Source: Methylophilaceae bacterium LSUCC0401 (lineage in GTDB: Bacteria > Pseudomonadota > Gammaproteobacteria > Burkholderiales > Methylophilaceae). From it: a DNA stretch of 64,000 nt. The notes under the pieces were generated by a model. The model was not told the origin of the DNA. It worked only from the letters and a program-made list of their open reading frames with translations, and ran no database searches. The position numbers and the translations under genes were made by a program. The DNA lies in NCBI GenBank assembly GCA_024919035.1, contig CP103442.1, positions 744,001 to 808,000 of the forward strand, given 5' to 3'. The first letter of the stretch is position 1, and each line of letters opens with the position of its first letter. This document shows, in pieces, positions 28,692 through 29,977 of this stretch.

Positions 28692-29855
28692 TTAAAGCTT
28701 AAGATCTGTAATAATATCATTCACATTTTCAAGTCCAACAGCAATTCGAATTAAGCTGTCAGATATACCAGATTCATCCCTTTCAGCCTGAGTTAATCTT
28801 GAATGTGTAGTTGTTGCTGGATGGGTAATCGTAGATTTGGTATCGCCTAGATTTGCTGTGATTGATAACATTCGGGTTTTATTTATCAATGACCAAGCCT
28901 CTTTTTTGCCTCCTTTTAAACTAAAAGACAAAACCGCACCCCCCAAACTCTGCTGTTTTTTTGCGATACTATATTGAGAGTGGCTTTTTAGTCCTGGATA
29001 ATAAACTTTAGAAATATTTTTATTCTTTTCTAAATATAAAGCCAAAGCCAAGGCATTGCTTGATTGTTGTTCCATTCTAATTTTTAGAGTTTCTAGTCCT
29101 TTTAAAAAAATCCAAGCATTAAATGGGCTCAGAGATACTCCAGTATTTCTTAAAAAAGTAAAAATCTCTGACATGACATTTCTTTTTCCTAAAACCGCTC
29201 CGCCAAGACATCTTCCTTGACCATCAAGGTATTTTGTTGCCGAATGAATAATAATATCTGCTCCAAGTTTTAAGGGTAATTGTAATGCTGGGGTACAAAA
29301 GCAATTATCAACAATCAATTTTGCCTTTGCAAATTTAGCTAGCTCTGCCAATTTAGAAATATCAACTATTTCAGTAAGAGGGTTTGATGGGGTCTCGACG
29401 AAGAAAAGTTTTGTATTTTTTTTAATCGAATTCTTCCAAGATGCTAGATCAGATAAATTTACAAAAGAAATATCCAAACCCCATTTTGATAAAAAATTAT
29501 TAAATAATTGAACCGAAGTTCCAAAAATACTCTTAGAAACTATTACATGATCTCCAGGTTTACAAAGAGCCATGAAAGTTGCTAATATTGCCGACATTCC
29601 TGATGATGTAGCGATACACTGCTCGGCACCTTCAAGTGCAGCGAGTCTTTCTTCAAACATATTGACAGATGGATTGGTAAAGCGACTGTAAACATATCCT
29701 GGATCATCGCCAGAAAATCGACGAGCTGCCTCTTGGGCATTCTTAAAAACAAAACTAGATGTTAAAAACAATCCTTCAGAGTGTTCGCCAAATTGTGACC
29801 TTTCAGTTCCGGAGCGAACTGCATTAGTTTCGAATTTTTTATTATTTTTTTTCAT
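28692..29855 (-). CDS. metZ: O-succinylhomoserine sulfhydrylase
   Basis: PLP-dependent Cys/Met-metabolism enzyme that makes homocysteine directly from O-succinylhomoserine and sulfide, the product of the cys operon. The 387-residue protein has the motif YSRFTNPSVNMFEERLAALEG near residue 50, FVETPSNPLTEIVDI and the PLP lysine in IIHSATKYLDGQGRCLGGAV near 205. The N-terminal FETNAVRSGTERSQFGEHSE is characteristic of MetZ rather than MetB or MetC. It is monocistronic, with a probable SAM-II riboswitch in its leader. Confidence 0.92.
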   Translation of the reverse strand: MKKNNKKFETNAVRSGTERSQFGEHSEGLFLTSSFVFKNAQEAARRFSGDDPGYVYSRFTNPSVNMFEERLAALEGAEQCIATSSGMSAILATFMALCKPGDHVIVSKSIFGTSVQLFNNFLSKWGLDISFVNLSDLASWKNSIKKNTKLFFVETPSNPLTEIVDISKLAELAKFAKAKLIVDNCFCTPALQLPLKLGADIIIHSATKYLDGQGRCLGGAVLGKRNVMSEIFTFLRNTGVSLSPFNAWIFLKGLETLKIRMEQQSSNALALALYLEKNKNISKVYYPGLKSHSQYSIAKKQQSLGGAVLSFSLKGGKKEAWSLINKTRMLSITANLGDTKSTITHPATTTHSRLTQAERDESGISDSLIRIAVGLENVNDIITDLKL

Positions 29856-29859
29856 ATTA

Positions 29860-29875
29860 TCCTGACTGAATCAGG
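29860..29875 (-). promoter_or_regulatory. Hairpin occluding the metZ ribosome site
   Basis: CCTGA and TCAGG form a 5-bp stem around TTCAG just before metZ. The 3' arm runs into the Shine-Dalgarno AGGA (29860-29863), 4 nt from the ATG. The upstream segment ACTGA, at the 3' end of the riboswitch candidate, can pair instead with TCAGT in the loop/3' arm. Mutually exclusive structures controlling translation are therefore plausible. Confidence 0.45.
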
Positions 29876-29884
29876 TTTATTCCT

Positions 29885-29936
29885 CAGTTTAGCTAATAGT
29901 TATATGCGCTAGCAAGCTGGTGCAAATCCACGCGAA
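29885..29936 (-). promoter_or_regulatory. Probable SAM-II (SAM-alpha) riboswitch upstream of metZ
   Basis: The metZ leader contains, in order and with SAM-II-like spacing, CGCGTG-GATTTG (29934 down to 29923), CAGCTTGC-TAGCGCA (29919-29905) and AGCTAAA (29894-29888). GAUUU, CUUGC and GCUAAA are the best conserved pieces of the SAM-II pseudoknot known upstream of metA/metZ genes. The P1 pairing here is weak (about 4 bp with mismatched ends) and P2 pairing is imperfect, so a variant or SAM-V-like form is possible. The element lies about 30 nt before the start codon, consistent with translational control by S-adenosylmethionine. Confidence 0.62.
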
Positions 29937-29977
29937 GTCATTATGGATAAAAAAATTTAAATGGTCAACTCAGCTAC

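Follow-up and report, generated by a model that had tools for sequence, protein, structure and literature searches.

Upstream of metZ, the minus strand of the 64-kb stretch of DNA analysed here (hereafter the window) carries short motifs known from SAM-II riboswitches, and the question is whether they belong to a SAM-II-type aptamer controlling this gene and how such an aptamer would act on it. The host is a small marine methanol-consuming bacterium of the OM43 type, and its genus is taken by us to be the OM43 clade on the basis of the names of the closest records and of genome size. The metZ product passes the equivalog cut-offs of two NCBIfam models, the one given in Table 1 and TIGR01325 (567.6 bits, cut-off 510), and the end of GCTAAA lies 32 nt upstream of its ATG at 29855. 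Promoters comparable to that listed in Table 1 precede the aptamer in the relatives as judged by eye, and the transcript start would fall near the 5′ strand of P1.

Table 1 Features of the metZ leader and gene in the window
Feature	Position	Strand	Basis or remark
sigma-70-type promoter TTGACC-17-CATAAT	29940..29968	-	10/12 consensus matches
P1 5′ strand GCGUG	29929..29933	-	pairs with 29906-29910; top pair G.A, next U.G
L1 loop GAUUUG, third strand of SAM-II triplex	29923..29928	-	pattern unique in window
P2 5′ strand CAGCUUGCUA (CAG, P2b; CUUGC, core)	29910..29919	-	sequence conservation
P1 3′ strand AGCGC	29906..29910	-	P1 pairing statistics
GCUAAA, P2 3′ strand and SAM-contact core	29888..29893	-	invariant in all aligned leaders
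P2b 3′ strand CUG	29885..29887	-	pairs with CAG 29917-29919; same in 8/8 clade members
GAGGA, likely metZ Shine-Dalgarno (SD), 3′ edge of aptamer	29881..29885	-	kept in 8/8 leaders
hairpin CCUGAUUCAGUCAGG between GAGGA and AUG	29861..29875	-	clade keeps position, not sequence
AGGA, second SD-like site, 3′ arm of hairpin	29860..29863	-	2/8 leaders only
metZ, O-succinylhomoserine sulfhydrylase, 387 aa	28692..29855	-	NF006003 654.8 bits (cut-off 522)

The earlier note had reported these motifs in SAM-II order, which was confirmed: GATTTG, CTTGC (29916-29912), AGCGC and GCTAAA follow one another on the minus strand with a GATTTG-to-GCTAAA span of 41 nt, and the pattern GATTTG-N4..14-CTTGC-N10..30-GCTAAA has a single match in the window, at the metZ leader, with 0.01 expected from shuffles. 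As in SAM-II, GAUUU, CUUGC and GCUAAA make up an ordered core and P1 encloses L1 and is supported by compensatory changes, although the top pair in the window is G.A; the weakness of P1 remarked on earlier is real, and of the seven distinct leaders in the clade five have U-A as this top pair, in place of C-G. The CUG strand of P2b overlaps the first G of GAGGA, the site with the best fit to the anti-SD in the leader (-6.0 kcal/mol), and the fold predicted for the free leader also contains P2 together with P2b.

Taken alone, the sequence is indecisive because its score with the Rfam SAM_alpha model (RF00521), 16.7 bits with an E-value of 0.65 in 1.3 kb, is far under the gathering cut-off of 36 bits, and its significance comes from the relatives. 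It ranks second among the SAM_alpha matches in its own genome; a 20.2-bit match considered as a chance rival was rejected as such, being a separate SAM-V-like element. The metZ leader of this genome gave no match at E 1 to RF01826, the model of SAM-V (Poiata 2009; Huang and Lilley 2018, PMC6061858). As both score tests failed, the element is filed under neither family.

RF00521 was run against 150 family genomes and matched elements located just upstream of metZ, over the cut-off in two genomes and in many cases scoring 24-32 bits; many of the relatives are incomplete MAGs. Within the window's genus, four types of metZ leader can be distinguished. Type A, which the other genera have as well, reads GCGCC-GAUUUGA-n-CAGCUUGCGGGCGC-n-CAGCUAAAGCGAGG and is followed by an intrinsic terminator. 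Type B, that of the window, is represented by eight genomes, has no terminator and reads GCUAAACUGAGGA; it is also carried by the closest named records, strain LSUCC0717 and MAG casp15-mb.134. Type C (GGGUGAAUUUAGUCCAACUUGCUCCACCC..GAAGCUAAAAAGGA) is followed by AUG, and in type D a type A aptamer and its terminator precede another aptamer, which is SAM-V-like, includes a small P3 hairpin and has AGGA behind its GCUAAA. A poly-T terminator, the downstream feature of the metXZ element discussed below, was found in 7/8 type A leaders of the genus and 4/4 of type D, and in 0/8 and 0/6 leaders of types B and C, respectively. All eight type B leaders have GAGGA immediately 3′ of GCUAAACU. The type A leaders L018, L023, L027 and L034 from other genera contain variable, partly self-complementary L1 inserts between GAUUUG and CAGCUUGC.

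The conservation expected of a functional aptamer was observed, with GAUUUG, CUUGC and GCUAAA kept in relatives and the core letters identical between the type B clade and its terminator-type relatives. Across 21 leaders of types A and B, GATTT is invariant, the final G of L1 is present in at least 90% and CAGCTTGC is invariant as well. In the alignment of the same leaders, P1 is 98% paired and shows two-sided changes at three of its five pairs, eight changes against 3.0 in shuffles, although kinship inflates such counts. The P2 core letters do not vary in these leaders, so they show no covariation and are uninformative on pairing. Covariation in P1, P2 and P3 was seen in a set of 16 SAM-V-like elements (16 two-sided changes vs 4.5), two of them from outside the family but within the order, and a GCUA/UAGC extension of P2 co-varies in the SAM-V-like relatives.

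Two covariance models without any type B sequence were used, R1 built from 30 type A metZ leaders of betaproteobacterial and gammaproteobacterial origin, and R2 built from types C and D and from elements located in genomic islands. R1 finds the window aptamer with 26.3 bits (E 5.3e-5 in 118 kb) and R2 with 23.8 bits (E 0.0015), both E-values being rough because of the short calibration, and the remaining type B leaders score 30-33 bits with R1. The idea that a SAM-II-type aptamer controls metZ is supported by these clade-excluding models, and 29878-29936 is, as judged by sequence comparison, a diverged SAM-II-type aptamer in the metZ leader.

The earlier note had also suggested that the element, as a betaproteobacterial copy, would be a variant or horizontally spread. 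It is indeed a variant; an unusual or horizontally spread copy was not supported, as terminator-type SAM-II precedes metZ throughout the family. A horizontal origin was rejected because type A is the rule in the family and type B forms one clade inside the genus. R1 at E 1e-4 matches 174 of 369 genomes of the class, and RF00521 exceeds its cut-off in 25 of the same 369; most betaproteobacterial and gammaproteobacterial copies are missed by the public SAM-II model. In the MetZ tree, types B, C and D each form one clade with a support of 100 (100/100 for B), with C and D as sister groups (99/98) and type A leaders found around all three. On the simplest reading of this tree, the leader type switched once for B and once, separately, for C and D together, the placement of B among the A rows being loose. 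The sister clade has solutions of its own, either a tandem of terminator-type SAM-II and a SAM-V-like aptamer or the SAM-V-like aptamer alone.

As for the mode of action, type A is predicted to have the usual attenuator layout, with CAGCUUGCGGG able to pair with CCCGUCAAGCUG of the terminator at -10 to -19 kcal/mol vs -8 to -12 for the terminator hairpin. Sequence comparison establishes the descent of the window aptamer from the terminator-bearing SAM-II element of the relatives. The terminator has been lost in the window clade, and control in this clade is therefore probably translational. Since the clade combines this loss with GAGGA kept directly after GCUAAACU, a translational, SAM-II-derived OFF switch is favoured, in which a SAM-stabilised P2/P2b closes GAGGA, and we regard this proposal as a whole as reasonably probable. 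SAM bound at L1 and P2 would fix the pseudoknot and with it P2b (CAG with CUG), which would take the first base of GAGGA and place the folded aptamer against it; the 30S subunit would be excluded and metZ translation would drop at high SAM, GAGGA being accessible without SAM. Because GAGGA stands 18-25 nt from AUG, beyond the normal spacing, it has to be assumed that the small hairpin bridges the two and shortens the initiation distance, which is a guess; the effective spacing would be from 1 to 10 nt depending on the stem chosen. Against the proposal stand the weak P1 of the window, the direct coverage of only one base of GAGGA by P2b, as read from the sequence, and the low Rfam score.

The hairpin itself was the basis of another mechanism suggested earlier, in which it masks the AGGA of its 3′ arm in the presence of SAM and is opened by an alternative pairing, ACUGA/UCAGU, in its absence. 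The hairpin CCTGATTCAGTCAGG exists (-6.5 kcal/mol, p 0.014 vs shuffles), its 3′ arm enters AGGA, the alternative pairing is also in the sequence, AGGA-UAAU-AUG would provide a normal SD spacing and the closest relative (G086) carries the same hairpin. However, the alternative pairing (-5.8 kcal/mol) is weaker than the hairpin, AGGA pairs with the anti-SD less well than GAGGA (-4.1 vs -6.0), and six of the eight clade leaders have neither the arm AGGA nor the alternative pairing, different hairpins occupying the same position in relatives. AGGA is masked in the unconstrained fold predicted for the free RNA too, so this switch would be off in both states; the mechanism is unlikely. A terminator-like site read on the plus strand at 29861-29875 was dismissed, being the same hairpin in reverse with no gene behind it. 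The metZ start is uncertain in one leader (L041, G114), whose hairpin contains a further in-frame ATG (ATGCCTAATATG).

SAM-V-like elements were also found outside metZ leaders. In the genome of the window, one of them (C1:410288-410347, minus strand; L201 6956-7348) stands directly before a 109-aa ORF with no family assigned and scores 55.8 bits with R2 and 27.4 bits, under the cut-off, with Rfam SAM_V; the island of this ORF contains tRNA-Arg, a tyrosine integrase, a C5 cytosine DNA methylase and an NgoPII-type endonuclease gene. Another genome (G147, L203 6840-9766) has two elements before 46-aa and 108-aa ORFs, adjoining a SinI-type endonuclease and a C5 methylase. Identity between the 108-aa and 109-aa proteins is 33%, and they are the sole two homologues among the 150 family genomes, each with a SAM-V-like element and a type II restriction-modification pair alongside. 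A link between the SAM level and restriction-modification is possible on this arrangement, with two cases and in islands that gather such genes anyway. Near-identical elements precede 46-62-aa ORFs at L202 7606-8109 (G074), L205 (G135), L268 6402 (G154), L204 (G098) and L206 (G129), with a Z1/ResIII ATPase gene close to the G074 element and ORFs resembling adenine methylases by eye close to the G154 element. In G659, from the same order and another family, two elements with GCCA/UGGC in P2 (L273, L274) are located upstream of a DUF3293-like protein and of a 117-aa ORF with a DUF3293 gene behind it. Relic elements without GCUAAA adjoin a tRNA gene at L233 1500-1560 (G155) and L267 (G074). Neither the island-element pattern nor relatives of the 109-aa ORF were found in viral contigs, and the small ORFs gave no reliable match in Pfam, PHROGs or PDB sequences.

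Two further explanations of the window leader have to be weighed against a working translational switch. It might be a decaying remnant whose aptamer drifts after terminator loss and no longer switches, as the weak P1 (G.A, U.G), the absent terminator and the low Rfam score could suggest, but this is improbable given that the core letters are unchanged in eight genomes despite MetZ identities to the window protein down to 78% and altered flanking leader sequence, and that U-A is kept atop P1 as described above. The ancestral SAM-II might instead have been replaced by SAM-V from marine alphaproteobacteria or by a SAM-V-like element of the same genus; the layout with the SD immediately 3′ of GCUAAA, the P2 extension UUGCUA/UAGCUAA, which type D and the island elements have too, and the weak R2 match agree with that. 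A P3 hairpin, present in type D and island elements, was looked for in type B and is absent, RF01826 has no match at metZ, type B shares GAUUUG and CAGCUUGC with type A, and its leaders score at least as well with R1 (26-33 bits) as with R2 (24-28), all of which makes a replacement very unlikely. A broader possibility, which we put forward tentatively as an idea with less than an even chance of being right, is that streamlined marine bacteria of a single genus are changing from SAM-II to SAM-V, and on at least two separate occasions: the window clade through terminator loss and the use of GAGG behind GCUAAA as SD, the sister clade through a tandem of SAM-II and a SAM-V-like aptamer, the latter being present in genomic islands as well. 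If true, SAM-V would be a recurrent translational state of SAM-II and not a separate class. The close relatives form a ladder in which the aptamer core is kept and the output appears to shift from transcription to translation within one genus, so the origin of SAM-V-type switches would be directly testable with a few short RNAs.

Concerning known systems, SAM-II in Betaproteobacteria was already published: it was listed in Bordetella by Corbino 2005 (PMC1273637), and SAM-II terminators in beta-Proteobacteria were reported by Barrick and Breaker 2007 (PMC2258182). SAM-II before metZ is the rule in the family, and what is new is the terminator-less variant of the clade. The window element shares with SAM-II (RF00521; PMC1273637) the order, spacing and letters of the core, the P1/P2 H-type pseudoknot and the position before a homocysteine-synthesis gene, and differs in the score, the missing terminator and the weakened P1. 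The betaproteobacterial metXZ RNA element of Leyn 2014 (PMC4239095) likewise precedes metZ in Methylophilales and has a pseudoknot with conserved blocks, with a terminator downstream that is lacking in the window form; that paper names no ligand for it and did not identify it as SAM-II. It is almost certainly type A, the match being in genes, taxa and layout, which ties an RNA element described without a ligand to SAM-II. A survey of an OM43 strain listed a single (cobalamin) riboswitch (PMC9004378), and the present predictions suggest that OM43 genomes hold more.

SAM-V acts on translation through a short helix that bears the SD, and in rare translational metX SAM-II and SAM-V the SD is sequestered likewise (PMC6061858). 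In the window leader, too, the likely SD stands at the 3′ edge of the aptamer, as in a translational switch, and a putative short helix, CAG/CUG, ends in sequence at the first base of GAGGA, but the leader has other P1 and P2 lengths, neither P3 nor a model match, and a hairpin between SD and AUG. In S. meliloti metA, the SD of SAM-II acts on an AUG 74 nt away (PMC9373788); closing of the SD at a distance from AUG would be common to both, with a terminator and 74 nt intervening there and 25 nt with a hairpin in the window. Of the tandem SAM-II/SAM-V arrangements, 149 cases are known (PMC9481103), and type D, a terminator-type SAM-II followed by a SAM-V-like aptamer, corresponds to them, although its pair belongs to a betaproteobacterial metZ leader. 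The window leader has retained a single aptamer, which by its sequence descends from SAM-II and would work like it.
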